From positions 62,001 to 126,000 of the forward strand of contig CAMPDV010000117.1 in NCBI GenBank assembly GCA_946699065.1: DNA of 64,000 bases. Direction: 5' to 3'. The first letter of the stretch is position 1. Every line of letters begins with the position of its first letter. The notes beneath the pieces were generated by a model. It had not been told where the DNA came from. It saw only the letters and a list, made by a program, of their open reading frames with translations, and made no database searches. The stretch is from Loxodes magnus (taxonomy: Eukaryota; Ciliophora; Karyorelictea; Loxodida; Loxodidae). The translations under genes and the position numbers were made by a program. Below, piece after piece: positions 6,340 to 59,620 of this stretch.

Positions 6340-7335
6340 CAATTAGTTACCCAGGTTGATGATCACCTAATATTCTCTTCTGGTAAAATTTTGTTGCTAA
6401 TTATGCTTGAAGTGATTCATTAATCCGTTAAAAAATAATCAATTTTAAACTTTCTTTTTTCCTGTTGTATTAATGAGGATTAGGTCTTATATTGGATCAT
6501 TGCATTCTAATATGAATTCATTCATTATGTTTAATAGCTATTATCCTGCTGGGTTTAGTTCCTTAGGTAGAAATTATGGTATATGCGCATTAAGGTCTCC
6601 TACAAATTACGTTTTGTAATTCTAGGCTATTTGCTAAGTATATGAATTATTTGATTAATTCTTAGAAAGGGATTAATTATTCTGGTTCAGTCCTTGTAGG
6701 TGCATATACTTTGATAATTGCATTTCTATCATAAAGACTCATACAAATTATCATGCCGCCTTCAAATATTTCATTTCATTTTAATTTAATTTATTTATGT
6801 CATGTTATTTAACTCTGCATATGAGTTGCTATTTAATATATAAAGTCACTCCTTTGCTATGTCTAGTTCCTGGTTTTATAATAGCGGAGTACCCAGATAT
6901 TTAGGGTATATCTTTAATTGAGTCTATAAAAATTTCATGAATCGCCATAATGTCTATATCTTTTTCATGCATGAATTTACTTAGTTCTTCTTTGTTCGAT
7001 TTTGTTCCTCTTACATTAGCAGTTTCTATATTTAATTAGTTTCAGATAGTAAGATTTTCTTGATCTTTATTGTTTGATTCTACCTATTTAGTATCATTTA
7101 TCAAATTAGGGTCACTTACTTAAACTCTATCAAAACCAAAGTCTCTAATGTTTGCATTTATGCTTAAGTTTAAGTGTACTTGCTTATCTGATATTATTTG
7201 TTATTTTATTATTAGAGGTTATTGCCTTTATTAGTTATAAAAGCAAGTTAACTGCTTATTGGAGTTTATTTTGCTCAGTGAGTTCTGACAAAGCAATTTT
7301 TTTTCTGTCACATCACTAAATTTTGGTTTTTCCAT
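6340..7335 (-). pseudogene. LINE apurinic-type endonuclease domain, frameshifted
   Basis: Read on the minus strand from an ATG at 7335. The frame reaches I-E-T-A-N-V-R-G-T-K-S-N-K-E-E-L and then D-I-D-I-M-A-I-H-E-I-F-I, the usual opening of non-LTR retrotransposon endonucleases (N-x-R-S...D-I-x-x-x-x-E-T/I). Next come S-G-Y-S-A-I-I-K-P-G and K-G-V-T-L-Y-I. In another frame there is I-I-K-V-Y-A-P-T-R, and back in the first frame F-V-G-D-L-N-A-H (GDxNAH motif). The need to change frame around 6700-6760 marks it as decayed. This domain nicks target DNA for retrotransposition. No reverse transcriptase follows it here, so the copy is truncated. TAA/TAG are Gln throughout. Confidence 0.7.
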
Positions 7336-7339
7336 AGGA

Positions 7340-8560
7340 CAAAAGTAATTTTAATCATTTTATCCCAACATTTATTTAATTAAATGATCTGTTATTATCC
7401 TGCCATTTCTTCCATTTCTCATGCAAAGTTTCAGAATTGATTTTTGAAATTTTCATACTTTAGGTTTCAAACTTATGTTTGTTATTCATTTTTATTGTTT
7501 TTTTAATTTTCCTTTTTTTATCATTGCATTTTTTAATCGATTGTATTATTTTTATTGCATGTTTTATCCTTTTTTTAATATTTCAGTACAATTAATTATT
7601 GACTTTATTGCTTTTTTTCCTGCATTGCTTTGTACTGTGCCCAGTTTTTCGACAATCTTCATATTATCATAGTGTCGGATGATTTAATTTTAAGTGCAAA
7701 TTTTTTAGATCCAATTAAATAGGAATTTTTTCTGAATTAGTGATTTCTGATATATCTAAGTATATTGTGGTTCTACCATCCAGTCATGTTGTTCCTTTTT
7801 TTTATGTAGAATTGTTCGCTTGATATTGCCGAAGACTTTTAGTTCTTTTTCTATTTGAGGTAAATATTCGTATATACCTAGAGAACAGTGAAATGGATAA
7901 CTATTAATATTGTAGTATTTGCTAATATTTCTCTTCTCAATAAGAATATCAAATGATTAGTATTACCATTTTTTTATGTCAGAGAATTTATTAAGTTATT
8001 CTTAGTCAGAAAAGACAATTGATAATACTTTTCTTTCTAAATGTAGATGAAAATATGTTGGCAAATTATAATATAAGAAAAAAATTAAATTTTGGAATTT
8101 TATTAGCTATTTTAATCTCTTTTTCACCCTAACAACAGAAATCTTTGCTTTAATAAAATTCTAAGAATTCAATATTAAAGATTTTTATCTTAAGAAGTTA
8201 TTCTTGCTTATTACAGCATAATTTTTCTTGCTATTTCCATAAATTAAATTAGTAACAATTTGTAAATTTTTATTGCTTCTTTTAATTATTTTTTTATTAA
8301 TAAAAACTAGAAACTGTAAACAAATTTTGTAGTGATATTTCTATGAATTTCAAAATATTATTATTTTCTAAAATAGTTGATAGATAAACTATTTAACTTT
8401 ATTTTATAGTCCAAGAAGATTTTAAACTGAATCTTGAGATAAGTGTTTTTAATTTATTAATTTACATTAAATATCTTCACCAATCCTCCATTTTCCTTAA
8501 TTAATTTCTAAAAAACTAATTAGAATAAATTTATCTGCAAATAAAAATGTTTAATACGAA
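7340..8560. other. No convincing gene; possible upstream LINE remnant
   Basis: The minus strand may continue the LINE copy upstream, but no motif supports this. Otherwise the stretch is AT-rich and featureless. Confidence 0.35.
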
Positions 8561-13065: not shown

Positions 13066-16000
13066 ATGGCTAAAAAGGAACATTCAATTGATGATATTTG
13101 AAATCTCCTTTATGAGAATGGAGCAGGATAGTAACAAAATTCGAAAATTAGGATATTTGAGTATGAAAATTTAATTCCAAGTAAATAATAACTAAATACG
13201 CTGGTTAAAATAGGATAAGGAGGGTATAGCTAAGTATACAAAATCTAGATTGAAGAGAAAGATTATGCTATTAAAATTATTTCTTAGAAGAGAGGAGAGA
13301 CATAAGAGCTTCTTATCAACAGTTTCTACAACGAATGTAAATCCCTTTTATCTGTAAATCACTAAAAAGTTCTGAGAATTCGAGGAGTAGCATTAAAAGT
13401 TGATGAGAATGAATTGATTCTTTGCCATATTACTGACTATATGCAAAGAGGCAATCTTTTCAATTTGATACATAGCAAGCGTTTGTTTTAAGAAACTTTA
13501 AAAAGTGCCTCTGCAAGATATTAATAAAAGTTGAGCTTATTATTATAAATATCTGAAGGACTAGAAGCAATTCATGAAGCAGGAGTTATTCATAGAGATA
13601 TAAAATCAAATAACATTTTAGTAGATCATAGTAATAATATTAAAATAGCTGACTTTGGCATAGCAAACGAAGAATCTATTTCTAACACATTAATTGCCAG
13701 AGGAACCCTTCCATGGATGGCTCCAGAAATTTTTGACTAAAAGGTGAGCTTTGCAAGTGATATTTGGGCTCTTGGCTGTGTTGCATGTGAGATTTTTAAT
13801 GAAACAGCTGTTTATCCTTTTTCAAATAAGGAAATAAAAGACTATGTTTATAAAGAGAAAAAATACCCTTTATTCTCTTAAGAAATTTAGAAAGATTCAT
13901 AACTAGAAAATTTACTTAAACGCACATTTAGCTATGATCCTAAAGAAAGGCCTAATATCTAAGAGTTTAAAAGAGTAACTCTAAAACTGAAAGAAATTTA
14001 AAATAGCGAAAATGAAGAGGATGAAGAAATTGAACTAAATACTTATGAGAAGAAAAAATAACCTTACATGGAAAGTAATTTGTATTAAAAAGGCTATAAT
14101 ATTCAATAATTCTAACTTCTAAATAATAAAAATTAGGTTGATGAGGTTGATTAAATGAGTGAAGAAGTAGTTATAAGTTAAGACTATATTTCCAGTGAGT
14201 AAAATTAGTCTAAATTAAGAGGGTAATAGGAAAACATTTCAAATCAAAACAAATTTGAATCTGATGAACTTTAATATTCTCAAGATAATTCAAAGCAAGA
14301 GTATCCCTCAGGATCAAACTTTTAGGCTTCATAACTAAATAAGAGTTTTGAAAATCATGAGTGAAATATTGTGGATTCTTAATCAAGCTAAAATGAAAAT
14401 CTATAGAAGGAATAAAATGAAAAAAGAGAAAGAGATATCCTTGAAAATTATAACAGAGAGTTACTGTTTTAAAAGAACTAACTAGAATAGGAAAATAAAG
14501 AGAAACAGTAGTTATTGAACAAGCAAGCAGATAAAATAATGTTTATTGAATAACAGCTTTAGACTCTAAAATAAGAGCTTACTTAAAAAGAAAACAAAAA
14601 TTAAGAAGTTGAAAAGTAAAATACTAACTTAAACTAGAAAGAAGATATAAATTAGATAAAAAGCAAACTTTAGAAAGAAATACAAAATCTTCAGTAATAA
14701 AATGAAGAGTAAAAGCAATATTATTAGAAGTAAATTAACTAGCTGCAAGACAAATAAATATCTGAAAAGAAAAAAGATGAGCTTTAAATAACTGAGCTTA
14801 AATTTTAAGTATAGAAACTTAAAGAACAATTAGACACTAAAAAAGATATTGATAACAAAAAAAATAGCAAATATTAAAGAGAATCTTAAGAATAATCCTA
14901 GTATCAATTATAAATATAAAACTTGACAGAAACTTAAAACGAAAACATCTAAACTATTAATTTACTCCACGAACAAATTGATAATCTTAATCAATAAATT
15001 ATAGAAAAAGATAAATTTATAATTTCTTTATCTGAAAACTTTCAGTAAATGAAGTTCAAAATGAAAGAGAATTATTATTAAGAAAACGATAAGGAGCAGT
15101 AAGGTCTCGCGAAAAAATTAGAAGAATAGAATATTACAATTAAATCTCTAAATTAAGTAAACTAGAAATAGCAAATAGAAAATGATAGACTACAAGAAGA
15201 TTATAATAAGCAACTGCAAGAAATTAAATAAATGAAAGCTTAAGAATAAAAATACATATTAGAAAAGGGTCTAAACATAGAGTTAAATTAGCAGATATTA
15301 ACCTTAAAATAGACAATTGTATAGTTAAAAGAAGAAAATGAGAAATTAAGTGAAGGATAAAAGCAAAAAGACTCCGAAATTAAAAATATCGTAAGTTAGT
15401 TTGCTAATATAAAAGAAGAAAAATAACAAATTTAGGATTCAAATTTAAATTAAAAAAATGAGTAAAATTATAGAAAAAATTAAGAAGTAATTCAATCAAA
15501 GTAACAATAAATAAAATACACTTACTTAGATTAAAATTATGAAAATCCTTACTAATATCGTTATAATCCTTAAAATATCTAAAAAGATATTGAGTCCAAA
15601 CAAGAAAAGTAAAACATTTCATTTGAATATAAAAAGCAAAACGAAAAATTCGAGCTAAGCGTCTAATACAATATCGGAAAGATTTTAAAATTAGAAGTGA
15701 GACCTGGTAATTTAATAAAAGATGTAAAAAACTAAATATTTTAAAAGCTTTATTTTAAAGTTGAATTATAAAAACTTCTTCATAAGAAATAGCAGTTAGA
15801 AGATTATAAAACCTTAGAGTATTATAAAATCAATAAAGATCCGCTTATCGAGTTATAATTAGGCAATTCCTATTATTCTAAGGGAGATCAAGTAGATTTA
15901 TTTTCTTAAAATAAAAATATAGAAAATAAGAAAGAAAAATAGTTATAAGAGGATTTTAATTTCGAAGAAGATTTCGAGATAAATCAGCATATCTAGTATT

Positions 16001-16971
16001 AGTAAACTCCCAATAAAAAATTAATAGAAAACTAAAATGTTATTCATTAGTAGAAAAACGAACCGGAGATACAATAAAAAAATCTAAAACCTTAAAATTA
16101 TAATTAAAAATGAAATTATGAATTTTAATAAAATAGACTTTAAGAATAATAAAAGTATGGTGGGCCTAAAAAAAATTAACTGGAAGAAGAGGAACAGAAG
16201 TTATAAATTCAATAAAAAAAATTGATTTAACAATACTAAAGTGAAGGAATTTATGGTAGAAGACAGTTAAATTTGTTTAGATGTCCAGTTTGCAAAATTG
16301 AGAAAGAAGAAGAAGATAACATAATTACTCTTTACTGTGCTCATAAAGTTTGTAGACCTTGCTTAAAAAAAAGACTCACTGATCTTGTTTTATAAGGAAA
16401 ATATAAAGAAAAGGATTTAACATGTTAATTCTGTTTAAAGCCAATAGAATAAGATAAAGGTAAGTCGATTTTCTCTATGATTGTTCAAAATTTGGATAAA
16501 AAATATGTTTAATAAATTGAAGAAAAGAGAATGTAAAGTTTTGGAATAATTAAATGTCCTAATCCAAAGGGTTGTTAAAGTAACATTGATCCATCAGGAG
16601 CAAGAATTATAACATGCATTAGTTGCAGATATACCTTTTGTTCAAAGTGCCTTAAATCTTCAACCAAATGTAGTTGCTTGAATTCTAATTTAAAGATCTA
16701 TCTGAAATATGATTACTGATAAAACATTAAAAACATATTAAAGGAAAATTTACTGAATAAATTAGATTATTATCTATTCATTTCAAATCTTTACATTAAT
16801 TGCATTTATTCTTTTTTATTTTATATAAGCGTATTATTGTATTATCTCTCGATATAAAACTTCGAAGTAGCTAAAATTATAAATTTATTAATTAATATAA
16901 TTTTAGTTGTCTTCATTTTAACGGTAGACTTCGATTTTAAATCACAAAAAATTAGAAGCAGATTTAGATGA
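13066..16971 (+). CDS. Kinase-coiled coil-ubiquitin-like-RING-IBR membrane protein
   Basis: A 1301-residue frame with a TGA pair at 16969-16974 as the end. Kinase domain (about 40-300): G-Q-G-G-Y-S-Q-V at 50-57, Lys70 in A-I-K, H-R-D-I-K-S-N-N at 176-183, D-F-G at 196-198, W-M-A-P-E at 217-221, so catalytically complete and TKL/STE-like. A Gln/Lys/Glu coiled coil fills roughly 340-850. Residues 862-932 align with ubiquitin (L-E-V-R-P-G, then L-E-D-Y-K-T-L, then I-E-L-Q-L); the Ser65 position is Pro and the Lys48 position is Gln. A RING (from C1073-x2-C1076) and an IBR-like finger (C1164 to C1204) follow; no RING2 is present. Two hydrophobic segments (about 1242-1264 and 1272-1292) lie after an in-frame TGA at 16717, which I read as Trp; termination there would remove the membrane tail. 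Likely a membrane-bound kinase/ubiquitin scaffold. Other in-frame TGAs include codon 12. Confidence 0.85.
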
Positions 16972-19212: not shown

Positions 19213-21117
19213 TCATAAAATACTGCAGCACCCTTTTTTTTTAACTTTCTTAGATTTTTATTGTGTTTCAAATTGATCAAAACTAAGTTGTATTCATTAG
19301 TTTGTTCTGAGATCATAATTATATATTTCACTTGCTTAATCAAACTGATATAATTCTTAGTTACTAATAATAGGCTATGTATAAGAAAGTCCTTGTCCTC
19401 TATATAAGCTACCATATTCTGCAACGTTTTTAAAATCAAACATCTGAGTCTTCATTTCGGATTCTTCTCCATTCCTGTAAATAAGGAAATATTAACTTCA
19501 AGGGAGGAATACTGCTGTGGCTCAGTCTTTTTATTTCAAAGTTAATTAAGATGCTGACCAAGCGTTATTCATACTATTGTATATCTAAATTGAATTTTAA
19601 GTTGATTTATCATATTCTGCAAAACCTCCGAAAGCAAAAACTTGAGAGTTGGCATAATCACATCCAAAGTTTTTTACTTGAGAAGAAATCGGAGAAATTT
19701 TTGTAGACGTTTTAGAATTTAAGTTGAAACTCTCGCATTCAGGTTAGCCAAAAATTTAGCTATTCATTTATATGATTCCAGAAATTATATATATTATGTT
19801 CTTTTTATCAAAAATTGTTCTATGATAATTTCTTTAGAACAGAGTGTCATAATTATTCACCTTGTCTTGCTTGATTATTCGAAACTCTTAATTTTTTATA
19901 TATCCTGAAACAATTAAACTTTCTTCTAATATTTATTCAACGCAATAACCTTCATTTATCCAGGTGATTTATATTTCTTTGGATTCAAACTTTTTTTAGT
20001 TTGCAGATCAAATTTACTTAATTTTAGAATTTAACTTAATAGTTGCTATTTAATTTTGTATAGTTAGGCTTTAATTTTTATCGGTTAATTGTATCTAAAT
20101 TTTATCTTCTTAGACTATTTATTATAAAGAAATGTTCTTCTAAAGTTGTAACTTTTCTAAATTTAAATTTGGTACTAAAGATTTCTTGCTTTAAAAAGCT
20201 GGATTTTTTTAGGAATTTATAGCTGATTAGTTGCTAAACGAAGGGGATTACAAATCTTTGAATTACTTTGTAGGTGAAATTTATGGATAAAAGGAAGACG
20301 TATTTTCTAATTGCTTCGTAGCTTAGTCTAATTTAGATAAAACAGTATCTAAATTAATTCTTCTTTAAGGATCTTGATCTAAGCATCCTTGTATAATTTC
20401 AGCAAATATTTGAGGACAATCAACTGGTATATCTGGTCTTTTCCCCTATTATATTGCAAGCTTTATCTCTCCTGTTTCAGCGTCTTTAAAAGGAATTTCT
20501 CTTGCTGCTATTTCCCATAAAGTTATTCCCAAAGCATAGATATCAGAATTTTTACTAAACTGAGGTCTAATTCCGAATAATTCAGGAGCCATCCAAGAAA
20601 TAGTGCCCTCTTGCTTCAAAGTTTTTACTGACCTGGTACTTGTTTTGATATAAGCTAAGCCAAAATCACTTATTTTTGCTTTTTTATTTGAATCAAGCAG
20701 AACATTAAGACTTTTTAGATCTCTATGAAAAATATCCTTAATATGAATTTATTTGAGGCCAGCCGCTATATCTGAGCTTATTTTAAATCTAAGGCTTCAA
20801 TCTATGTCAGCTTAGCTGTGTAAAAAATTATATAAAGATTATTCCATAAGCTCCATTATTAAACTCATAGGAGAATCACAATACCCAAAGAATCTAATAA
20901 CATTAGGACTGTTTATATTTTACATTGCAGTTACTTCGTTAATAAATTCTTTTTCCTCGTTTTCAGAAAATTTAAACTCAAAGAATTCTTTTATCGCTAC
21001 TTCACCACCGTTTCATTTGCCATGCCAAACTTCTCCAAAACTTCCTTTTCCTATTTTTTTAATTTTTTAAAGTTGATTTGAAGGAATTTTTTAGACGTTT
21101 ACAGTGGTGTTTATCAT
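19213..21117 (-). CDS. TKL-type protein kinase with Kelch-like C-terminus
   Basis: A single minus-strand frame of 634 codons from ATG 21117 to TGA 19215-19213. Kinase domain: G-K-G-S-F-G-E-V at 23-30, Lys43 in A-I-K, H-R-D-L-K-S-L-N at 131-138, D-F-G at 151-153, G-T-I-S-W-M-A-P-E at 171-179. The H-R-D-L-K-S and W-M-A-P-E signatures are those of tyrosine-kinase-like (TKL) Ser/Thr kinases. A Gln/Lys linker (about 290-400) leads to Kelch-type beta-propeller repeats with F-A-F-G-G-F-A-E-Y and I-Y-N-Y-D-L-R-T-N-Q-W, where the last Trp is TGA. Trp35 and Trp107 are also TGA; Trp175 is TGG. A possible 22-nt GT-AG segment near 19480 was rejected because the unspliced frame reads on into a good Kelch repeat. 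The Kelch part probably binds a partner; no membrane segment is seen. Confidence 0.85.
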
Positions 21118-24100: not shown

Positions 24101-24460
24101 TAATTATAAACGAATTGTCTTAATATATGCATTTAAGTTACCTGAGAGATATTAATAAAAGAGTATATAAATCCTTAGTAAAATATACTAATTTGAATAT
24201 GCTCTTTATTTAAAGCTAAATGATAATACTACGACCACATGAGCATTCCTAATTATTCCTTCTTAATTTTAATTATCTTTTATTAAATAATTGTTATGAG
24301 ATTTTTACTCTAAAGTCAAGTTAATTGTTATATTAATAGAATCTCTTAAGCTAACTCTATTTATCAGTATTTGATATTATAAAGTTTGAATAGTAGTTAA
24401 TGATGTTTAAATAGCTTGTTTAAAGCAGGAATTAAATAATTCTGATATATAATTACGCTA
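21118..24460. other. AT-rich intergenic, no gene seen
   Basis: 3.3 kb between the Kelch-kinase gene and the RBR gene. Rich in TTTA/TAGC-type words, with no coding frame, RNA gene or retroelement motif that I can support. Confidence 0.4.
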
Positions 24461-26067
24461 ATGAAATCATTAGATAAGTAACCTCTTGTAGAACTAGATT
24501 CCTCTTAAATGCATAATTAAGACTATGATTTACCCTTATCTTCATAGTAGGATATTGAACTTCCCATACTTATTAAAAAAGGATCATCTCTTAGAGAGGA
24601 TGAAAAAATTTAGCAATAGATTGAAAATCATCCTTCTATTGCTGCTTTATTGCCACCTATCTCCTAGCATTTATTAGAAAGGCCTTTGGAAGTTTAATCT
24701 TTACAACTTACTTAAATGGGATTCAAATCCGAGGAAGTGTATTAAGTACTTTAAAGGTTAGGAGTTATTGATATAACTGAAATCATTCAGTATTTAATCA
24801 AAGACGAAAATCATCTTTTTCTGCATACTTACATTCAAAACGGAAATTCCTAGATTTGCTCAATGTGTGGATAGTTAGATTCAAGACATCAAAGTGTATC
24901 TGTACCTAGTAATTATTAATCAACTTAGATAGATTAAAAAAAGAGAAATTAATTATAAGAAATTTTGTAGAAGTAAGCTTCTTAACCTTAAAACATGCCT
25001 AAATAAGAAGAAAATAAATATAGTCTTCTATGCTCAATTTGTTATACTGAGTTCCAAGAATAGTAAATAATTAAGTTTAAATGTAATCACACGTTTTGTA
25101 ATAATTGCATTAAGTCATACCTTACCGATTTAATTTCTCAATCTAAAGTAGAAAAATTTAGTTGTCCGACTTTAAATTGCAATTTAGAACTAGGAAACAT
25201 TGAGAATCTTGTTGATTAATATACTTTTTAAAAATACCAAAAATTCAAACGTAATAACTGGGTTAATAAAAACCCAGATGCTAGATGATGTCCTACACCT
25301 GGATGTGACAGCTATATGATTGGAACTAAATAAAATGAAAAATTGCTTTGTGAAAAATGTCAAAAATTTTTTTGCTTCAGTTGCATGAGAGAATGACATT
25401 AGGGTAAGAAATGTGAATAAATTTCTGATGAGTTATATAAGGAATGAGCAGAAGGAAAATAAGTATAAATTTGTCCTAATTGTAAAAAAAGGATAGAAAA
25501 AAATGAAGGATGCGATCATATGACTTGCTATTGTGGTCATGAATTCTGCTTTATTTGTAGGTAACATTTTTGTTATTTTCTTCAGAGCAAAGCATGGATT
25601 TCCACACTACAGAAATTGCACAACAAGAAATAAAGAGTAAAAATTTAATTTTAGTTGAGATAAAAGATTCTTGGATAAACTAGATAAAAAATCCTTTCCG
25701 ATACGTATAATAATATATTTCGTTTTGATTCTTTTAGCTTTACCAATAACTTTAATTTTTTCTCTTCTTTGTGGAATTCAAATTTGATTAGGCTATTAAA
25801 AGTGCTTCCAAAATTTTGTAGAAAAAATAATTTCGAATTGTAAAAAGTGATAAGTGATAATTATAGCCCTTCTAATTTATTTAGTACTAACGATATTCAA
25901 TCCAGTTTTTGTGACGTTGTATTCATTATATTTCCTAATAAAGTTTGTTTATTTTCTAGTTAGATATTAAGGTAATTCTTTATATAGTTTTAACTTTCCC
26001 TATTTTTCTCAATAGATTCGTTACATCTCCACCAGTAATAGGTGGAATTGGAGGAGGAATGGCTTGA
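24461..26067 (+). CDS. RBR-type E3 ubiquitin ligase, UBA and two TM segments
   Basis: Three exons (24461-25560, 25586-25971, 25988-26067) give 521 residues ending at TGA. A UBA-like helix set (about 81-115, with Q-M-G-F-K-S-E-E-V) precedes a small C-x2-C pair. RING1 begins at C191-x2-C194, the IBR follows with R-W-C-P-T-P-G-C at 275-282 (Trp276 is TGA), and RING2 runs 338-366. RING2 includes G-C-D-H-M-T-C, whose last residue, Cys356, is the family's thioester-forming position; all key Cys are present, so it should be active. Hydrophobic spans at about 408-431 and 457-492 suggest a membrane-anchored ligase of the RNF144/RNF19 kind. The C-terminus ends in a Gly-rich [10 protein letters not shown]. 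The intron junctions were chosen because they restore [11 protein letters not shown] and a clean end. Confidence 0.9.
25561..25585 (+). other. 25-nt intron in the RBR gene
   Basis: Starts GTAAC and ends TTCAG, interrupting the codon after F-I-C in RING2. Removal joins AG to A, giving Arg and then A-K-H-G-F-P-H, which continues the conserved RBR sequence. Without removal the frame is lost. Confidence 0.85.
25972..25987 (+). other. 16-nt intron in the RBR gene
   Basis: GTAATTCTTTATATAG. Removal turns an aimless tail into [16 protein letters not shown] followed by a Gly-rich end and TGA. The size equals that of the introns in the two receptor genes. Confidence 0.75.
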
Positions 26068-27133: not shown

Positions 27134-27206
27134 TGGAGAACACGGGTATCGATCCCGTTGCCTCTCGCATGCAAAGCGAGCGCTCTACCATTTGAGCTAG
27201 TTCCCC
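27134..27206 (-). tRNA. tRNA-Ala (UGC)
   Basis: A 73-nt cloverleaf on the minus strand: acceptor GGGGAAC pairs with GTTCTCC, the D arm is GCTC..GAGC, the anticodon stem CTCGC/GCGAG encloses TTTGCAT (anticodon TGC), and the T arm is ACGGG/CCCGT. The G3-U70 wobble pair, the hallmark of tRNA-Ala, is present. A poly-T run follows the 3' end as a pol III terminator. No intron and no encoded CCA. Confidence 0.97.
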
Positions 27207-32192: not shown

Positions 32193-35100
32193 TCACTTTT
32201 CTTTTTCAAAATTTTTCTTACCTACTATTTTTTCAAGCTCCTCATCTGTTAAAACATGCTTGCATAAAAGACAGTTTGCTTTTATTTTTTTATCTTTTTC
32301 ATTAGCAATAATATTGCTTTCAAGATCCTTGCTTACTCAGTCTTTAAGACAAAATTTGCAAGTTAAGTGTTTACATTTTAATTACAAAAATTACTATTTT
32401 TCAAATTCTTGCTAACATACTTCACACTATAGTAATTAAGAAGGCTCTTTTTGCTAGATTTCTAAATTTTTTTTCTAGAAAGAAGAAATATCTAAAGTAC
32501 TATTATTAGGATAACCTTATTAAATTTTAAAGTCCTTAAATTCCTCGAATGGACTTTCTTAACCAGTTTAGATGATTTCGATAAAAAATGGTTTACTTGA
32601 GTTAAATATATCATAGTTTGTTGGAAGTTTAATTTCTTCATTATAATTTTCATTAACTTCATCAAATCCATCAACTAAAGATTGCTCTTTTGAATATATG
32701 ATGTCATAATGATCAGGTTTATATAAAATGAATATTAAAGGGCATTTCCCTGCTATTTTTATCTAATCTTAGGGCTTTTCTGCATAATTTTTATCAATCG
32801 TTACAATATCAATTTTTACTTTTAGAACTACTTGAAGAGGTCCAATTCCTAATCCATCTGCTTCTTTTTCCATTGTAAGTATATTTTTTATAAGCTCTTC
32901 ATAAGGAATTTAACACAAGGATTCAAAATACTCTTTATGAGACTCTAAATAATTAGCAGTTAGACATCTCATTTACCATACAAGTGCTTCATCTTATCTA
33001 TCTTTATTATCCTAAAGTTCCAAATTTAAAAATTGCTAAATTTATTTATTATTTTATTACTTTAGTTCCTTTAAATTATTAAGTAGTCTTAGGAAAGTTT
33101 ATCTTAGAATTTTACTACTATTATTATGATTATAAGGTCTAATCTAATAGTACCCTTTATCACTTTCTAATTTATTAATAAAATCTTCCAGATGTTAATG
33201 AGGAGTAGTATATCTTGATAAATGCTCTAAATAAGAATATCCCACTGCTCTAAAATAACTATTACCATCATTTCTCACATTTCTGTAGGAATCAAACTTT
33301 TGCTGCAATTCTAAAATATTTTTAGCTATATTTTCATTATGCTTTTATTCGTTCAAATAAGAGGATAGGGATTTCCTAGGAAAAACCTTTTTTAGTTCTT
33401 AAGATTCCAGTTTCTAATGAAAAATTTTACTATTTAATTATTTTTAAGAATTTTGATCGTTTTGATTTAAGAAATTATAAGGCTAAATAGAATCATTACT
33501 GCTTTATAAGTTTTATTTAAATTTAAAGATGGTATCTACTACATATTAATCACTATTTTAATTTTTCACTTATATTTATTTCAAGTTGTCTTAATTACTT
33601 TTTTAGAGAAGTTCACCTTAAAAATTTGTGGATTAAAATTACTTTAATAAGTCCTCTACTTATTTTTCAAGATCTCTTGTTTATTTCTACAGGATATTAT
33701 TGCTATTTATGATTAAATTAGATTCCTTTTTTAATTCTTCTTTTTCACTATTTATTTTTTTAATTTATTTATTTAGATTTTCATTTATTTCTTAGAGAGC
33801 TATTATTTCCTCTTAAAACCTTTATTATTTTTATTAGGTAATTTCTTGTAATTAAAGCAACTCATTTTAAATCTTTTGTACTTATTATTTATTATATTAA
33901 TTTTCTTTTACAAGCTCATTTTATTAAAGTTCAGCTTAGCTTTCTTTGATAAGTTTAAGTTGTTCTTTTTCTTTTTTTAAATTTAAGTTTTCTTATTCTA
34001 GGCTTAATATAAATATTTATGATTCTTTTTATTGCTTAAATAAAATATTTGTTTAGGTTTCATATTCTAAATTTTTGGCTTAACTTTAACTTAGTTTATT
34101 CTACAAATCTTAAAAATTATTTTCCAATTCTTTAATTTTACTGTTTAGTAGCTTTTTTTCATTTTTCTACTAATCTATCTCTTTTTCTTTATCTTCTTGC
34201 TATTTTTAAATAAGCTAAATCCTTTAATCTTCATTGTTAACTTAAGATTCTAATTTTTCTATTTGATCTTTCTAATCTTTCATTTATATCTACTTAATTT
34301 AATCGTTCTTATGATTATCATTTTCTGTTAAATTTGCTTATTAAAGTGTTGTAATAGTTAATCTAAAATAATCATTTTCCTTTTCTAATTCAGAAATTTA
34401 AGAAAGAAGTTATGAATTGATTAATTACAATTTTTTTACATTCATCAATTCGCTTTGGTAATTATTTTCAATTTATTAGTTTTTCTGTTTTAAATTAAAC
34501 TTTATATTTTCCATTTCTTGCATCTGCTCTTACAAATTATTAATATCTTTTTAATTCTAAATAATTCTATTTTATAAATCTTGAACCTACTTCTAGTTCT
34601 ATTTTTCCATGGCTTATACTTATTTTTCCTTTATAGCTAATTATTTAAATAGATTTGCTTTTTCTTTATCTAATTAATTAGTCAATAAATATCATTTATT
34701 CTTTTCTTTTTCAAGCTCTTAAATTAATAACTATAACTAATTTATTTTTTCTTAATATTCATTTTTTATTTATTATCTTATTTATTTTTATATTATCTCT
34801 TCATTTTTTTATTATTAAACACTACTTTGTGCGTCTATTTTATTATTTTACTCTTGCTCTTAGGTTATTTTTTGCTAATATGAATTTAGTTAATTTTCTA
34901 ATTCTTTAATTTTATCAATATTTTACTTATCTAAAATTATTTATAAATCTAATTAATTTTCTAGCTTTTATTTTTCTTACTAAGTCTAATCTTTTTGATT
35001 TGTAAGATCTATTATTTACTAGTTTAAAAAATTATTTTGTTTCTCTAATTATTCCAATTGAGTTTATTAGTTTGAATGTAGTACTTCTTTTTGCTTTATT

Positions 35101-36842
35101 TGCTACTAATAGTTAATATTTTGCTCTTCTGTTTATTTATTTTATTGACTGATAATTTTAAATAGCTGCTATAGTTTGTAATTTTCATCTTATGAATTTT
35201 TATTTTCTTTTTGAATGTTTTAGTAAATTAGATTTTTAACTTTCTAAAATTCTTTATTAAATTATGTTACCTCTTTACTAATATTTTAGAATCATATTTT
35301 TCATTTTGTTTTTTCTTATTTTTCTTGTTATAATTGTTCTTATTATTTACTCAATTACTACTAATATTTTAAAATCTCTTATCTTAAAATATTTCCTTGC
35401 TGTTAAATCTCTTAATATTACTTTAAGCTTTTTTCTAAATTCTAATTTTAGTTTTTAACTTAATTTAATTACTCTTCTTGAAATTCCTTTATTTATAAGA
35501 TGCTTTGATTTTCTTTTTTTATTTAATTTTACTATTGTAGATTTACTTTATTTTCTTCATAGAGATTTACTATTTTTTACTATAACTAGTCATTAAGTTC
35601 AGTTATATTCATTTCTGCCTTCAACTATTACTACTCCATTAATGCTTCATAATATTACCTTAAGTTATCTTTTTCTTTTTATTCTTTTAAAATTTTTTCC
35701 TTTAGTTCTTTTATTTAAATTTCAGTTTCTTAGATTTTAAATTTCTTTGCTTCATCTTATTACTAGATTACTTTAAGCTAATTTATTAATTGTATCTATT
35801 GCTACTCTTATTAGTCAAATTATTCAACTCTTTATTTTTATTCTTGACATTCTTTGATTTGCAGTTATAGCTATGAAATTTATTTCTTATAATTTAGACT
35901 TTAAACTTCTTATAATTCTATCTATAAGCTATATTATTTTACCTACTTACTTATTAAATCATTTTATTCCTAAACTACTTCCAATTAAATATTTCTATTT
36001 TATAATTCAAGTGTCTGCTTTTTTAAATTTCCTATTTATTCTTCATATTTAAGAATTTAGAGCTTATAGCTTTAATTTATTTCGTTTAATTCATTTACTC
36101 TAATTTTTACTTTATTATTCTAACTTTTATCTTTTTACAACTCTAAGCTAATATGTTAGCATTGCTCTTTATAAAAAACGTTATCATTTTCTTTTTCTAG
36201 AATTATAACTTACAGTTCTTATATTTTTAATTGAAATTACTCGCTTTTATTTTATAAGATATTATTCTCCTTTTTTAAGAGAAGCAATTGACTTTACAAA
36301 TCTTAGATTATCTCATTCAAGTCTTAGGTATTTTTAATTAATTCTTAATTCTATTAAGATTAAATTAGATCTTATTTAATGTTTTCATTTTACTTTTCTA
36401 AATGTTAGATTTACTAAGTTTAGCTTATTATTTATTCTTAAAGATTTTCTAAATCTTGGTTCTTTTGTTCTAAATTAACTTAATACTCTGATAGCTGAAT
36501 TTTAGTTTATTCAAACTGCTGTGTTATAATCTCATTTTCTTATATCAGTTCTTGCATTACACTTCTTAAATTTTCGTCTTTAGAATCTGGCTCTAAATGA
36601 ATTGTATTATATCGATTTTCCTCGTAAGGTAAATAAATTTCTTAAGTTTTTTCCTTTTAATTTGTTTGATTATAAATTCTAAAATTTTAACTTTCTAAAT
36701 CTTCTTCATTAATACCCAAGGTTTAGACATTTTCATTTTCATCTTTTTCTTATGGAAGACTCATAGATCTGATTTATCTTTGATTAAGTTCCTATGATTA
36801 AAAGTTTTAAATGTAATTAGATTTAAAAGTTTTTTTCTACAT
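32193..36842 (-). CDS. Coiled-coil protein with inactive otubain domain and RING
   Basis: A single minus-strand frame of 1549 codons, ATG 36842 to TGA 32195-32193. Residues from about 100 to 1120 are an almost unbroken Gln/Lys/Glu/Leu coiled coil. A C65-type (otubain) deubiquitinase-like domain follows: V-R-N-D-G-N-S-Y-F-R-A-V-G-Y-S-Y-L-E-H at 1189-1207, with Ser1195 where the family has its catalytic Cys (D-G-N-C). It ends in Y-K-P-D-H-Y-D-I-I-Y with the catalytic-type His1378 kept. A C-terminal RING runs from C1473-x2-C1476 through C-K-H-L-T-C-K-F-C to C-L-L-C. Ser for Cys (AGT, one base from TGT) predicts a ubiquitin-binding pseudo-protease joined to an E3-type RING. No introns were needed. 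In-frame TGA codons encode Trp in several places. The start is the first in-frame ATG I could find; a downstream start would shorten only the N-terminus. Confidence 0.85.
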
Positions 36843-38289
36843 TATGAACTCCTCCTAGTCCTATTACAAATATTAAAAATCTTAAGTATCAAAACCTTCT
36901 TATCTGAGCATTTCATCTTTTCTTCTATCGTTTCGAAATCTTTGAACTGCTTATATCATATAATGATAAGTAATATCCTGTTAATTGTTTCTCATTTAAA
37001 TTTCTTATAATTTAAAAAGCTTATAAATAGGCATAGCTATAGAAAATAATAGCTGCATTAGTTTACTCGTTTAATGAATATCTCAGCGTTTAGTTGTAAG
37101 TACTTAGTTATCTTTAATTTTAATTTATCCTAACAGTGAGACTCATTATTAGATAAAATAGCTATTCTACTTTATCTAAAGTGACTGATATATATTTTAT
37201 CTATATTAAGCTTTTATAAACCTCATACTCTTTTAATATTTATATTAGAGCTTATTGATTTGATTAGATATAATATCAACATTTTTAAAAGCGTAAATAA
37301 CCATCAAACATCTACTGAGAATTATAAAAAAGGTAGTTCTTTAATAAATTAAATGCTTTGAGAATATTCAAATTAGCTATCCTGAGACATTCCATGTTTA
37401 GCTATATTTAAATTTCCTATTTTAACTATTTTTCACCATTATTATTTCTAGCCTTATCTATTAATTAAATTATTAATGCAGACACAAAGACTTTGAAATA
37501 ATTAAGGAATTAATTTATATAAGTAAAGAAATAGTTAAAAGTATATAAAAGAAAGAAAAATCACATTTTTATTTTATAGAAGCTTTTAATACCAACAAGA
37601 CATAAATTAATACCATTCTGAAGCTTAAAGTTATTTTATAAATTATACTCATTGCTGGATTCATGTCTGAAAATAATCCATCATTCAAGGTAAGAAAAAG
37701 TTTAAAAATTAAAGAAATTTAAATAGTTAAAAATGTAGAATTTAAATAGAAAAAGATGCTTGTATAGCAAATATATCTTATATTTTTATTTCTTTTACTC
37801 TTAATCTGCTTAAGAATACAACACAAAAACCACTATTAATTAAGCACTTTTTTTATTGATTATAAGCTTTATTGTTATTTTATAAATGATTAAGCAATCA
37901 AACTTAAATTAATTTTTATATTTATTTAATTTAAATTTTTTCTATTATAGAATCATTTTTGCTCTAAGATATTTGCAAATATTCTTTACTTTATTAACTA
38001 CTCTAGATAAGTTATAATTATTTAGTAATTGTCTAAGTATAATTAGATTAAATTTAAAATAAAAAGAGACTATATTTGAACTTATAAGGGATCAAAGTTT
38101 AAAGTTAAGCTAAAATGATTCATAGATCTTAAATTAAATTAAATTCTTTTAATACAAGAATATTTTAATAGCATGAATAAATTTAATCTACACTGCTAAA
38201 TATACTCTTATATCCTTTTATATAAATTCTGCTATAAATTAACATTAATTCATATAAATTCTTATAATAATTTTTATTCGAATATAAAA
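36843..38289. other. AT-rich intergenic, no gene seen
   Basis: Likely contains the promoter of the otubain-like gene; no specific element is recognisable. Confidence 0.4.
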
Positions 38290-40915: not shown

Positions 40916-42617
40916 ATGGAGTCATTTAATAGCTATAAATTCTAGAGTTCAATGCTATAAGCTTTCTTCATAAAGAAAATTGCCTTTCCACTTCACTTAT
41001 TATCATTTATTGTTGCATATTAAAACGAGGCAAATTAAGTAGAATGACTTGTCACGATTTTTCGATTCGGTATCTGATTAGGGTATGCAACTTGTAATAA
41101 TTCCAAGAATTAAAATCATCTGAATAATATAGTCTGCATTTCAATAGCTTATTGCATGATAGAAGCTTTCCTTTTGATTGCATATCAAGCTAATTTATCG
41201 TGACTTGGATTGATGATTGTAATTTGATTTCCTAATGTAAGTAATCTATTAGTAAGAAACTGAAAAATCCAACTTCCTGTTTATATTTTTTGTGTTTCTC
41301 TTGCACTTGCAAAATGTTTCTAAAATGGATTACTAAACTTTAGTTTCAATTACTAGTTTTGACTGTTCCTTATTATACTGATTAACGGAGTTAGCATAAT
41401 GTCTTCACATTATGAGCAGTATACTCTGTTTCTAACCTAAAAATAAATCCAAGAAGATGCGATTTAGTTCAAATTTATATCTTCCATCACAAGGGCAGCA
41501 ATTATAGTTATAGACGATTAATTCAAAATATTATGGGAAAATTATGCAGTTTAAGAACTATTTTAGAAGAGAAGCATTTTACAAATAATAAAGGATGCTT
41601 AGTATTATAATCAAGAAATCACAACTAAGTTTGAAAAAGACTTAGAAGATTATATTAGCAGCAAAAAACCCATTTAAAAACCATTCTAGAAAGTTTCCTT
41701 AAAGAACTTCTAGATTTATGGATCCTTAGATAATTACCAAATTTTAGAAATTGAAGCTCTTAATACTATCTGGTAAGGATAAAATGCTATCATTCTTAAT
41801 ATATTAGACATCACTGATATTTAGAAAGAGATATAGAAAATAGAAAATACTAAGTAAGAGGATAAGTATAAAGATCTTTTTCTAAGATCTCTTAATTATG
41901 AGGTTCATGATCCTGTTTAGTCTATTTAAAAAGCAAGTCACTAATTACTAACTTCACTTGAAAATATCCATAAAGACAAAGATTAAAAGGAAAATAGACT
42001 TAAAGAAGAAGTGCTTGATTTCATTGAAATTACGAAAACAATTTACTAGAAATCAAGAAAATTAATGAATGTGACAGGATAGCTTCATGAAATCGTTTAG
42101 ATTTAGAATAAAAGTATTCAAACCAACTATAGCATTTTTAAAGTTAAATAACTCCTCAAGGAAGCAATCTCTATGATTAGAAAAGATGTAGAAAGAAAGA
42201 GTATTAGCTTAAGCATTGAAATAAATTTAAAAGTACCTGCTCAAATTAATTCGGATTATAATAAAGTTTTATATACTCTTCAGAATATGCTTTTCAATTC
42301 TGTTAAATACACTGAAAGAGGAAAAATAACGATTAAAGTGAAACATTCAGTTAACTACAAGTCTTAAGAAGAAAAAGAAATGTTTGATCTGTATAAGTTC
42401 ATTGTTTATGATACTGGAAAAGGCCTAGATGTATAAACTTTCAAGTAAATTTTAATACAGAAGTAACAGTGATAAGCCCTTTTAATAAGGTTTTGGACTT
42501 GGACTCTACATATCTTCTCAAATGGCATATGTATTAAGCGAAAGATATATAGAAGTGAAGTCCGAAATAGATTCCTTTTCTAAATTTTCATTTTTTGCAA
42601 GAGCAAAGAAAGTTTGA
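40916..42617 (+). CDS. Six-TM PAS histidine-kinase-like receptor, copy 1
   Basis: Two exons (40916-42444, 42461-42617) encode 561 residues ending at TGA. The N-terminus has six hydrophobic segments within about residues 15-160, including H-L-L-S-F-I-V-A-Y and F-W-L-F-L-I-I-L-I-N-G-V. A PAS-like domain follows (A-A-I-I-V-I-D-D-Q-F-K-I-L-W-E-N to I-I-L-N-I-L-D-I-T-D). The dimerisation helix that normally carries S-H-E-L-R-T-P-L reads N-Y-E-V-H-D-P-V: Tyr328 replaces the phospho-His. The ATPase part is intact: N box N-M-L-F-N-S-V-K-Y-T (457-466), G1 D-T-G-K-G (499-503), G2 G-F-G-L-G-L (520-525). No receiver domain is present. Probably a membrane sensor that binds ATP but cannot autophosphorylate in the usual way. 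The paralog starts at 48646 with the same start, intron and length. Confidence 0.88.
42445..42460 (+). other. 16-nt intron in receptor copy 1
   Basis: GTAAATTTTAATACAG. Removing it joins T-F-K to S-N-S-D-K-P-F-Q-Q-G-F-G-L-G-L and restores the G2 ATP-binding box, which is otherwise out of frame. The same intron sits at 50175-50190 in the paralog. Confidence 0.92.
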
Positions 42618-45177: not shown

Positions 45178-45250
45178 GGGGAACTAGCTCAAATGGTAGA
45201 GCGCTCGCTTTGCATGCGAGAGGCAACGGGATCGATACCCGTGTTCTCCA
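45178..45250 (+). tRNA. tRNA-Ala (UGC), second copy
   Basis: Base-for-base the same 73-nt cloverleaf as 27134-27206, with anticodon TGC, G3-U70 and a T run right after the discriminator A. Flanking sequence is unrelated to that of the other copies. Confidence 0.97.
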
Positions 45251-48645: not shown

Positions 48646-50347
48646 ATGGAGTCTTTTAGCAGTTTTAAATTCCAAAGTTCTATTTTCTAAATTTTTTTTA
48701 TTAAAACCGTGTGCTTTCCAGTGCATATTCTTTCCTTTATTATTGCTTACCACTATGAAACTAATTCAACTGAGTGAATAATCATTGGATTGAGATTCTG
48801 TTACTGATTGGCTGTTGCTTCCCTAGATGATACGAAATATTAAAATTATTTAAAGTTAGTTTTCTATTCAACAGTTTTCTACTGCTTCTTAGAGAGCTTC
48901 CTTATAATTTAAGCTTTTCCAAATTTAACCTGACTAGGATTACAGATTATCATATGAACTCCTTCACTTGGAAATTTATGTATTAGAAACTGGAAGATTT
49001 AACTACCTTCTTATGCTATAACTGTTCTATTGGCTTTATATAAGTGCTACTAAAACGGATTGTTAAGCTTCAGTTTTAATTACTAAGTCTGACTCTATTT
49101 TATTATAGTAATAAACGGAGTTAGCATAATGTCTTCTCACTATGAGCAGTATGCTCTATTTCTCACTTAGAAGCAAATTTAAGAAGACGCTATTTAGTTT
49201 AAGTTCATTTCCTCTACTACTAGAGCAGCTATACTTGTAATTGGAAAATAATCCAATATTTTATGGGAAAATTACGCAGTTCAGGATCTTTTCTAGAAGC
49301 GTAATATAATCAAGATTTTAAAGGACGCTAACTATTACAGTTAAAGCATTCAAACCAATTTTTATAAAGACCTCAAGGAGTATATTAAAAGCAAGGACAT
49401 TGCTTAGAAGAAATTTAATAAGGTATTAATAAAGAACTTCCAAGTTTACGGATCTTAAGATAATTACCAAATAATAGAAATCGAAGCTCTTAACACTACC
49501 TGGCAAGGATAAGAAGCAGTCATACTTAATGTTCTTGATATCACTGAAATATAAAAAGAAATATAGAAGATTGAGAACATTAAGCAAGAGGATAAGTACA
49601 AAGAACTTTTTCTAAATTCCCTTAATTATGAAGTAAGAGATCCTGTCTAATCTATTTAAAAAGCAAGTCATGAGTTACTAACAACACTAGAAAATTTTTC
49701 AAGAGCATAATAATAGTAGAATACTAATCTTCAACTAGATATGTAAAGCTTTGTCGATGCTCTAAAGATAATTTATTAATAATCCAAAACCTTAATGAAT
49801 GTGACAGGATAGCTACATGAAATAGTTTAAATTTAGACTAATAATATTCAATTAAATTACAGTAATTTCGAGGTAAAATAAATTCTTAAAGAAGCAGCAT
49901 CTATGATAAGAAAAGACATTGAGAAAAAAGGCTTAAGCTTAAAACTAATAATAAAACCTCAAGTTCCATCTCTCATAACTTCTGATTGAAGCAAAATAAT
50001 CTACACTCTTCAAAATATGCTTTTCAATTCTGTTAAATACACTGAAAAAGGAAAAATAATGATTAAAGTGAAACCTTCAGTTAACTACAAGTCTTAAGAA
50101 GAAAAAGAAATGTTTGATCTGTATAAGTTCATTGTTTATGATACTGGAAAAGGCCTAGATGTATAAACTTTCAAGTAAATTTTAATACAGAAGTAACAGT
50201 GATAAGCCCTTTTAATAAGGTTTTGGACTTGGACTCTACATATCTTCTCAAATGGCATATGTATTAAGCGAAAGATATATAGAAGTGAAGTCCGAAATAG
50301 ATTCCTTTTCTAAATTTTCCTTCTATGTAAGAGCGATGAAAAATTGA
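48646..50347 (+). CDS. Six-TM PAS histidine-kinase-like receptor, copy 2
   Basis: Exons 48646-50174 and 50191-50347 give 561 residues, the same length as copy 1 with no indel (constant offset of 7,730 bp). It starts M-E-S-F-S-S-F-K-F-Q-S-S against M-E-S-F-N-S-Y-K-F-Q-S-S in copy 1. Six hydrophobic segments, a PAS-like domain, N-Y-E-V-R-D-P-V at the H-box (again Tyr, not His), N box N-M-L-F-N-S-V-K-Y-T, G1 D-T-G-K-G and G2 G-F-G-L-G-L are all present. A Trp in T-S-D-W-S-K is TGA where copy 1 has Tyr. The first 1.4 kb differs clearly from copy 1, but 50076-50319 is identical to 42346-42589, intron included, which points to recent gene conversion. Function as for copy 1. Confidence 0.88.
50175..50190 (+). 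other. 16-nt intron in receptor copy 2
   Basis: GTAAATTTTAATACAG, identical to the intron of copy 1 and inside the converted tract. Removal restores the G2 box. Confidence 0.92.
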
Positions 50348-58484: not shown

Positions 58485-58605
58485 AAATTATATCAGTATT
58501 GAACGTTTTTGTCAGTACTGAATAATTATACCAGTATTGAACAAGGTTTATCAGTATCTGATAATTTTATCACTAAGAAACATTCTTGCCAGTATGAAAC
58601 ATTTT
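58485..58605 (+). repeat. Degenerate ~20-bp tandem repeat
   Basis: Six imperfect units of the type ATCAGTATTGAACnnnnttt: TCAGTATTGAAC, TCAGTACTGAAT, CCAGTATTGAAC, TCAGTATCTGAT, TCACTAAGAAAC, CCAGTATGAAAC. It lies between the 5S-like units and the hairpin that precedes the ORF1 gene, so it may be part of that element's 5' region. Confidence 0.6.
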
Positions 58606-58609
58606 TTTT

Positions 58610-58651
58610 AAAGAGCTGCGCACCAACGAGAGTGCTACGCGCTCTACAATC
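58610..58651 (+). repeat. Conserved retroelement hairpin, copy 3
   Basis: AGAGCTGCGCACCAACGAGA continuing GTGCTACGCGCTCT. Outer stem AGAGC-GC/GCGCTCT with a bulged T, inner GCAC/GTGC, and a 3-nt TAC asymmetry. It is 33 bp upstream of the ORF1 start, in the sense orientation, as at the 2061 copy. Confidence 0.65.
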
Positions 58652-58683
58652 AAATTTATTTATTATTTATCTATTTTAAAAAA

Positions 58684-59620
58684 ATGGTAGAAGGGTTCAA
58701 GAAAGGCTTTTATACCACCTCCTAAAAAGGGGAGAGAAAGTAAGAACCCTCATCTCTAACTAACGCGTCTTCTTCCTAGAAATAATCTTCTTCTCAAAAC
58801 CTTCAAGAATAATAGACTCAACTAGGAACTTCTGGATCAACTTAAAAGATGGGACAAAAGCGCCAAAAGGCTACCTCGATGACACCAACTGAAGAGGAAG
58901 GCCCTAGAAAGGTGCTGGAGACGCAAGAAGCAACAGCCGTGCGAGAGTTTGCGATGCCACAGTTCCAGGAAGAACAGGCATAAATTTTAGTCGCATTCTC
59001 TGACCTGAAGGAGGAAGTAAAGAAGCTACGATTAGAGAATAGAGCTCTAAAAAATCAAGTTACTGAGCTCAAGGAATGGAAAGAAAGCTTCTGGGAAGTC
59101 TACGATCGAGAGCAAAACACTTTCTTCAGGGAAATGGGATTGCTACAGCAGAGAACAACTGTGCTTGAAGAGAACAGCAAGTAGCAACAGTAGACAATTC
59201 AAGATACAATGGACATAGAAGGAGCTATTAATTTACCGAGGAGTCCAGACAAGAAATGAATTAGGAATAAACCAAGATGTTTTGTATGCTAACAAACTGG
59301 ACATAAATATAGACAATGTTAGAAATTGAAATTAATTAAATAATAGTACTGGAATAGAAAATAATAAGAAAAATAATAGTACTAATATTAGGATAAGATT
59401 AGACGAGAATTCTGTAACTAATTTTATCCGTCAGGAGGTCAAATCTACAAACCGAAGTGGTATACAATCTAAGGCGACTGAAGAAAGAGTCCTGAAGGGA
59501 GCTGGTTCCAGCCAGGTTATCAAACTGGTCCTGTGAACACGAGGTTGAAAGTCCTCCAGGTTCACTAAACTCCAATTTAAACTTTTAAAGAATCCTAATA
59601 TTATTATTATTTATCTATTT
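58684..59620 (+). CDS. Retroelement ORF1: coiled coil plus CCHC zinc knuckle
   Basis: The best preserved copy of the family. The ATG at 58684 opens M-V-E-G-F-K-K-G-F-Y-T-T-S, the start shared with the 10777 copy. A Ser/Gln-rich segment follows, then a coiled coil (about 102-165: L-K-E-E-V-K-K-L-R-L-E-N-R-A-L). Next is M-D-I-E-G-A-I-N-L-P and the knuckle C199-F-V-C-Q-Q-T-G-H-K-Y-R-Q-C212 (C-x2-C-x4-H-x4-C), which binds nucleic acid in Gag and LINE ORF1 proteins. TGA codons at 59257 (K-K-W) and 59479 (G-D-W) read as Trp or, for the second, could be the stop. No further TGA comes before 59791, beyond the (ATT)n tail at 59598-59612, so the true end is uncertain. No ORF2 follows: an ORF1-only, probably non-autonomous element. 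Its GC content is higher than that of the host genes. Confidence 0.75.

Follow-up and report, generated by a model that had tools for sequence, protein, structure and literature searches.

Introduction

Can a protein kinase, a ubiquitin-like domain (UBL) and a RING1-IBR pair be carried on one polypeptide, and what might such a protein do? The question is raised by a gene at 13066-16719 (+) of the window, as we call the whole 64,000-nucleotide stretch of Loxodes magnus DNA analysed here (C117:62001-126000 in our contig numbering, within a searched assembly of 705,730,643 bases); "window gene" and "window protein" refer throughout to this kinase-UBL-RING1-IBR gene and its product. An original prediction, made from the letters of the stretch, had proposed such a fusion ending in a membrane tail and had compared it with PINK1 and parkin. 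Our analysis suggests that this is one fused gene of a multi-locus family, and that its product perhaps acts as a scaffold recruiting ubiquitin-conjugating enzymes (E2s). This is the best explanation we have overall, and we would give it a probability of roughly 0.6.

Results

One reading frame across the TGA codons

Under translation table 11 the region from 11 to 19 kb holds just two open reading frames of at least 60 amino acids; the frame of interest becomes readable only when TAA and TAG are taken as Gln and TGA as Trp. We used this translation throughout, with TGA also regarded as a possible stop. Read this way, 13066-16971 is an unbroken frame of 1302 codons with TGA at 13099, 14362, 16111 and 16717, and a cluster of TGA codons starts at 16969. 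The code is supported by a neighbouring RBR gene, in which two TGA codons, masked as X for the alignment, fall on Trp residues of ARIH1; in-frame TGA is also present in many IBR matches genome-wide. The code of the window agrees with that published for L. magnus, in which UGA is Trp and also the sole stop. Other published figures agree too: the GC content of Loxodes 3' untranslated regions is 18.6%, and the macronuclear (MAC) assembly measures 706 Mbp (PMC11441545), close to the size of the assembly searched here. The neighbouring RBR gene itself (window 24296-25475 (+)) has RING1, IBR and what by eye is RING2 with a catalytic-type cysteine (EGCDHMTC); Trp is the likely meaning of three TGA codons in it, including the two checked against ARIH1.

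The original prediction had joined the kinase, UBL and RING-IBR on one chain while remaining silent on the four TGA interruptions, of which we read the first three as sense. The N-terminal motif that flanks TGA 13099 is common to paralogs on either side of this codon, and contig C22 carries a kinase of the same clan in which TGA occupies this very codon. As for introns that might remove a TGA, the 40 bases preceding each of 13099, 16111 and 16717 contain no GT, and around 14362 a single 27-base GT-AG stretch (14361-14387) would keep the frame and take the TGA out.

Since this code has no stop other than TGA, and the frame contains four, one might suspect separate genes misread through, a kinase ending at 14362, a coil gene ending at 16111 and then a RING-IBR gene. 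However, the first in-frame ATG after 16114 is at 16477, within the RING-IBR module and with none before RING1, so that TGA 16111 must be read through. The kinase N-lobe likewise requires an ATG preceding TGA 13099, inside a motif conserved among paralogs, and codon scores are coding-like over 13177-16674 (with a training set that took in parts of the window gene). The same order of parts, moreover, recurs among the paralogs, with kinase, UBL and RING in one frame at 19 of the 26 places described below, which answers the worry about separate transcripts as far as sequence can. We consider separate genes very improbable; the window gene very probably encodes a single fused polypeptide (Table 1).

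Table 1. Revised features of the window gene, in window positions.
Feature	Positions	Strand	Basis or remark
Whole gene, revised, from ATG to stop TGA 16717-16719	13066..16719	+	1217 residues with TAA/TAG as Q, TGA as W
Family N-terminal motif, roughly DI..LL..RGA......QIRIW.Y..L	13081..13185	+	Paralog alignment; contains sense TGA 13099
TGA read as Trp, residue 12	13099..13101	+	Inside the family N-terminal motif; same codon in the C22 clan kinase
Protein kinase domain	13198..13971	+	Pfam PF00069, E 2.1e-48; Gly-rich loop, VAIK-type Lys, HRD, DFG, APE
TGA read as Trp, residue 433	14362..14364	+	Alternative: 27-base intron 14361-14387
Coiled-coil-like segment, residues 455-760	14428..15345	+	Heptad power, z 4.3
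UBL, residues 861-931, with Pro aligned to ubiquitin Ser65	15646..15858	+	phmmer and paralog profile
TGA read as Trp, residue 1016	16111..16113	+	In-frame ATG absent between this TGA and RING1
RING1, residues 1073-1123	16282..16434	+	Pfam sub-threshold, ARIH2 match, paralog profile
IBR, residues 1146-1204	16501..16677	+	Pfam PF01485 sub-threshold, 19.4 bits; paralog profile
TGA, most likely the stop, 14th codon past the last IBR cysteine	16717..16719	+	Codon usage and paralog stops
"Membrane tail" of the original prediction, most likely 3' untranslated or non-coding	16720..16971	+	Codon score -0.163, GC 0.189

Domains of the window protein

A hidden Markov model check of the segments recovers the kinase directly from Pfam (Pkinase, residues 45-302, E 2.1e-48); the RING and the IBR come up below threshold, and the UBL is reached through phmmer and a paralog profile rather than through Pfam. 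In alignment the kinase retains the Gly-rich loop, the Lys, the HRD Asp, the DFG Asp and APE, every catalytic residue being kept, so that its description as active-looking appears well founded. Against single ubiquitin chains, the best phmmer match listed for the UBL has E 5.7e-8, and most lie near 1e-6. We also built paralog profiles from which the window sequence was left out, yet the paralogs had been collected using the window as query; on the window protein these give 62 bits for the UBL (861-931), 141 bits for the RING-IBR pair (1070-1204) and 280 bits for the kinase, in line with the predicted UBL and RING-IBR pair. ARIH2 adds a colinear match across RING1 and IBR (E 0.011), and the pattern of RING1 zinc ligands is kept.

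The absence of RING2 stands as predicted, no RING2-like cysteine spacing being found downstream of the IBR when three frames were searched to 19.3 kb; a RING2 displaced by a frame shift was looked for in the same search and not found. The UBL indeed aligns a Pro with Ser65 of ubiquitin. The coiled coil, predicted at 500 residues, holds up in kind and shrinks in length to about 300: a significant heptad repeat covers residues 455-760 (z 4.3) and does not extend over 760-860 (z -0.6).

A family in the same genome

A search of the genome with the RING-IBR tail returned 123 places at E<=1e-3, and, reading the DNA around many of the strongest, we scored 49 RING-IBR places (E<1e-25). At 26 or more of the 49 a kinase precedes the RING-IBR, encoded by the same strand and no more than 3.5 kb upstream; at none of the 49 did we see a kinase on the opposite strand at up to that distance, or downstream in the DNA that was read. 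The figure of 26 is a lower bound because some members carry the kinase 2.7-3.1 kb upstream, whereas the upstream DNA read at the 23 kinase-less places spanned 1.5-3.7 kb, mostly 1.5-2.5; C261:401207, a copy of C168, was counted as kinase-less, yet there is a kinase at 404732. The parts share one frame at 15 of 15 places outside a multi-copy cluster and at 4 of 11 inside it, the cluster consisting of 11 closely similar copies (C699, C1125, two on C2594, C3013, two on C3021, C3458, C4314, C4883 and C5984).

Two UBLs are present at 20 of the 26 kinase-bearing places, one at a single place (the window gene) and none at five, and no UBL was found at any of the 23 kinase-less places; RING2 was recognised by eye at 0/26 and 14/23, respectively. 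Eight loci chosen by a general IBR search had no kinase within 1.5 kb. When ten paralogs chosen for their profile-found UBLs were submitted to Pfam, all ten gave Pkinase and two ubiquitin stretches, with whole-protein ubiquitin scores of 36.6-73.1 against a cut-off of 25.4 (in three, the submitted stretch did not reach the RING). In the reverse direction, the 21 kinases nearest to that of C54_547724 (itself counted, all at E<=6.3e-62) have a RING-IBR place within about 4 kb downstream in 19 cases, compared by eye; the exceptions are C54:423846, where the kinase is followed by RING, B-box and coiled coil (by eye), and C341:55533, with no RING in the 1 kb read. UBLs are poor probes for the family: a query of two tandem UBLs found its own locus only and the window UBL as sole query found seven places, itself counted, so that most of the family's UBLs escape searches that start from one UBL sequence. 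No relatives outside this genome were confirmed in viral contigs or prokaryote genomes.

From 20 assembled members we set aside C246 (an unrelated weak kinase) and C397 (a distant kinase), which leaves 18, the multi-copy cluster being represented among them by C699 and C2594_11232 only. Judged by sequence, the window gene belongs to this multi-locus family, whose commonest form is pseudokinase-UBL-UBL-spacer-RING1-IBR-CaaX, the first and last elements named from their motifs as considered next.

The kinase of the first of the two exceptions above, in the locus C54:420900-424750 (-), is 60% identical to the C54_547724 pseudokinase and is fused to what by eye is a TRIM-like series of RING, B-box and coiled coil.

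Pseudokinases, CaaX ends and the residue after RING1

The DFG motif is not intact in 13 of 17 aligned family kinases (the alignment omits C2594_11232), and in 12 of those 13 the HRD Asp is missing as well; the 13 look like pseudokinases from their motifs. In eight of the 13 an Asp stands one column earlier, and the DFG Asp may survive there in a shortened motif. HRD together with DFG or DLG is kept in the window gene, C19_52004, C139 and C390.

In eleven of the 18 members the C-terminus is a CaaX box with TGA directly behind it (CIVM, CIVM, CLIM, CLVF, CAIM, CLVF, CQVM, CLIM, CLVM, CLIM and CLVM), with two aliphatic residues in 10 of the 11 and Gln at the first "a" in the CQVM of C390. By composition alone one would expect such an end at about 0.0006 per protein (6 in 10,000), the 11 events not being independent since the members are related. 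The seven CaaX-less members are the window gene, which ends in KYDY, four on C54, C341, and C139, whose stop was not reached.

In RING ligases the last zinc ligand is followed by a linchpin Arg. At the corresponding position of RING1 the window protein has Leu, and the 16 aligned paralogs that bear a kinase have E, V, D, Y, T, K, Q or G, so that Arg occurs in none of the 16 and Lys in four. The aligned paralogs retain the zinc ligands of RING1, in some with Cys replacing His. Ser occupies the ubiquitin Ser65 position in 8 of 22 paralog UBLs.

Where the window gene ends

Codon usage changes at the 3' end of the frame. The domains and linkers of the window gene score +0.11 to +0.28 bits per codon and remain coding-like through 16674, the 14 codons directly 5' of 16717 score -0.100, and 16720-16968 scores -0.163 with 18.9% GC, where downstream non-coding windows average -0.113 (standard deviation 0.060). 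Because a hydrophobic protein can distort such scores, the stop positions of the paralogs are the stronger argument: a TGA stands 6 to 19 codons past the last IBR cysteine in 17 of the 18 members, the window gene counted, and in the remaining one, C139, none was met past the IBR within the stretch read. Very probably, then, the window gene stops at TGA 16717. The two hydrophobic segments with which the original prediction ended the protein lie beyond this likely stop, in DNA of non-coding codon usage, and the window protein probably has no membrane tail. Annotators face a trap here: in a code where TGA can mean either Trp or stop, running past the true stop to the next TGA creates false membrane tails.

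Points that weigh against the fused-family explanation

Several results pull the other way. In Pfam the RING of the window protein (1073-1123) reaches 17.9 bits against a cut-off of 21 and the IBR (1146-1199) 19.4 against 24.3, and for the UBL nothing is returned at E<=1. A structure model of the UBL alone, predicted from the single sequence without alignment, is of poor quality (mean pLDDT 54.8, two strands and one long helix) and does not display a ubiquitin fold. The parts do not all share one frame at seven of the 26 kinase-bearing places, all in the multi-copy cluster. The same cluster contains three RING-IBR copies (C2594:20865, C3013:11074 and C3458:18546) for which 1.5-3.7 kb of upstream DNA was read and showed no kinase. 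Finally, with its one UBL and no CaaX, the window protein is an atypical member of the family to which we assign it.

Origin of the window member

The two ends of the window gene point to different relatives. Its RING1-IBR is closest to that of C54_547724 (56% identity) and groups in the tree with C54_547724, C54_535230, C54_565097 and C341 (94/86, not starred), all of them CaaX-less. Its kinase is closest, at 50-54%, to kinases where a RING-IBR was not seen, and it does not fall within the clade of pseudokinases (100/100). Constraining the window kinase to group with those of C54_547724 and C54_535230 costs 147 log-likelihood units, with an approximately unbiased test p-value (p-AU) of 5.5e-58 for this group, picked after seeing the tree. 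In a nearest-kinase search in which 139 of 4496 candidates were scored, none of the 138 best-scoring kinases other than the window's own had a listed RING-IBR place at a distance of 5 kb or less (compared by eye). A kinase domain swap therefore likely produced the window member.

The swap is likely rather than proven because, while the kinase data fit it, the RING data allow alternatives: neither a clade of the 13 pseudokinase members without the window (p-AU 0.174) nor a group formed by the window gene and the members that keep an active-looking kinase, C139, C19_52004 and C390 (p-AU 0.116), is rejected. Both values would suit an ancestral origin, with the window gene holding the original active kinase and the pseudokinase members descending from one later loss. 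We find this somewhat unlikely, given that the RING1-IBR groups with four CaaX-less pseudokinase members while the kinase falls outside their clade, that joining the two is so strongly disfavoured by the kinase data, and that none of those 138 kinases has a listed RING-IBR place nearby.

We also observe that one kinase clan is hugely expanded genome-wide (the 139 best of 4496 first-look candidates all have E<=1.2e-62), that window 19231-21111 (-) encodes a kinase fused to kelch repeats, and that a C164 clan kinase is followed by kelch-like repeats by eye. Kinases seem to have been shuffled onto differing partner modules in this genome.

Other features of the window

At 32196-37130 (-) a single frame contains a long coiled-coil-like stretch and, after it, an otubain domain (Peptidase_C65 at 94 bits, the cut-off being 24.3) together with a RING finger (20.5 bits against the Pfam cut-off of 21), so that one chain would combine a deubiquitinase with a finger of ligase type. 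A pair of closely similar genes, 41363-42469 and 49093-50199 (+), about 7.7 kb apart, gives sub-threshold HATPase_c matches (20.8 and 21.2 bits, cut-off 26.4). Three copies of tRNA-Ala(TGC), at 27134-27206 (-), 45178-45250 (+) and 63172-63244 (+), are spaced by about 18 kb. Fragments at 6442-7869 (-), 53580-54392 (+) and 58522-59541 (+) look by eye like parts of retroelements (endonuclease-like, reverse-transcriptase C-terminus-like and zinc-knuckle features), and for 6442-7869 and 58522-59541 no Pfam match backs this reading.

Discussion

What might a kinase joined to half of an RBR module do? RBR ligases need RING2 to take ubiquitin on its cysteine, so the window protein cannot do RBR chemistry alone. 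In the mechanism that we propose, the RING1-IBR half would bind a ubiquitin-charged E2 (E2~Ub) and, because both the RING2 cysteine and the linchpin Arg are missing, could not pass the ubiquitin on by itself; it would act as an E2-recruiting scaffold, or the ubiquitin would be handed to a partner ligase. The UBLs would dock partners or the E2, and the kinase domain would sense a signal and switch the module, by phosphorylation in the window member and perhaps by allostery in the pseudokinase members. The CaaX paralogs would be held at the membrane through a prenyl group, whereas the window protein would be soluble and probably oligomeric through its coil. In this specific form, a kinase-controlled E2-recruiting scaffold, the mechanism is tentative, and it owes its place ahead of the two accounts that follow to the missing RING2 and linchpin Arg.

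One of these accounts makes the protein a self-contained RING-type ligase, in which RING1 would activate E2~Ub, the kinase would switch it in cis and RING2 would be dispensable. The RING1 zinc ligands, kept in the window protein and in the aligned paralogs (some with Cys for His), would suit it, a Lys at the linchpin position in 4 of 16 paralogs might substitute for Arg, and kinase-RING ligases such as plant KEG, with its kinase domain, exist. However, the linchpin position is Leu in the window protein and Arg in none of the 16, and the RING1 of RBR ligases does not normally activate E2~Ub in the RING manner, so that this account seems to us rather unlikely.

The other would have the RING2-less protein act as a decoy or inhibitor, competing for E2s or substrates with those RBR ligases of the genome that are complete. 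Its potential competitors are at hand, as the same genome holds RING2-bearing relatives with no kinase in the stretch read, and a degenerate kinase on a truncated ligase, as in 13 of the 17 aligned members, would be in keeping with such a role. There is also a precedent in the prenylated ubiquitin-fold protein MUB, which binds the backside of the E2 and inhibits its charging (PMC4996978), so restraining E2s at the membrane. A window kinase with its catalytic residues intact would nevertheless be odd in a pure decoy, and we rate this account lower still.

A bolder combination of the same elements would make these chains of kinase or pseudokinase, one or two UBLs and an RBR half without RING2, often prenylated, a lineage-specific family of self-contained, membrane-tethered switches, a separately evolved counterpart of the PINK1/parkin logic, in which active members might phosphorylate the UBLs of pseudokinase siblings in trans, where Ser stands at the Ser65 position in 8 of 22, and thereby gate E2 engagement. 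The candidate active members are the window gene, C19_52004, C139 and C390. We regard this as improbable. Fusions show which proteins work together, and the family, with the catalytic half of the ligase missing and in many members a lipid-anchor signal gained, would offer a natural test both of how RING1-IBR functions without RING2 and of whether pseudokinases can switch the ubiquitin system.

Lastly, we compare the family with known systems. Among the matches listed in searches of the open-access literature there was no kinase-RBR or kinase-UBL-RING-IBR protein in ciliates, in agreement with the original prediction, which knew of no described protein with such an order. The resemblance to PINK1-parkin, which likewise involves a kinase, a UBL and RING-IBR parts, is one of analogy only: the window protein is one chain rather than two, and with RING2 missing and Pro in place of Ser65 the PINK1/parkin reaction is closed to it, as had been anticipated. 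The 60 best solved matches listed for the window kinase include MARK, CTR1, NEK1, B-Raf, TAK1 and others, and neither PINK1 nor TBK1/IKK is among them. With the RBR ligases (ARIH1/ARIH2, parkin, RNF216) the window protein shares the spacing of RING1 and IBR, colinear with ARIH2, and some relatives in the genome share RING2 too; unlike them, it has no RING2 transfer cysteine, is fused to a kinase and a UBL, and ends its IBR on Cys where RBR proteins have His, the C-terminus following directly.

Fusions of kinases with E3 ligases are known from plant KEG (RING-kinase-ankyrin), animal MEKK1 (PHD/RING-kinase) and the plant U-box kinases, which also place a kinase and a ubiquitin-ligase-type zinc finger on one chain; the Loxodes family differs from these in its order, its RBR half-module, its UBLs, its mostly degenerate kinases and the CaaX end of 11 of its 18 members. 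TBK1/IKK have the order kinase-ubiquitin-like domain (ULD)-coiled coil, echoed by the UBL that comes soon after the kinase in the two-UBL paralogs, whereas the Loxodes family adds RING-IBR and has two UBLs, and in the window protein the coil precedes the UBL. MUBs are small, single-domain proteins and contain no kinase or RING-IBR, and the window member, unlike them, has no CaaX. The paralogs nevertheless share with MUB/UBL3 a ubiquitin fold combined with a lipid-anchor signal, and MUB is the nearest precedent we found for a ubiquitin fold that is prenylated and acts on E2s (PMC4996978).

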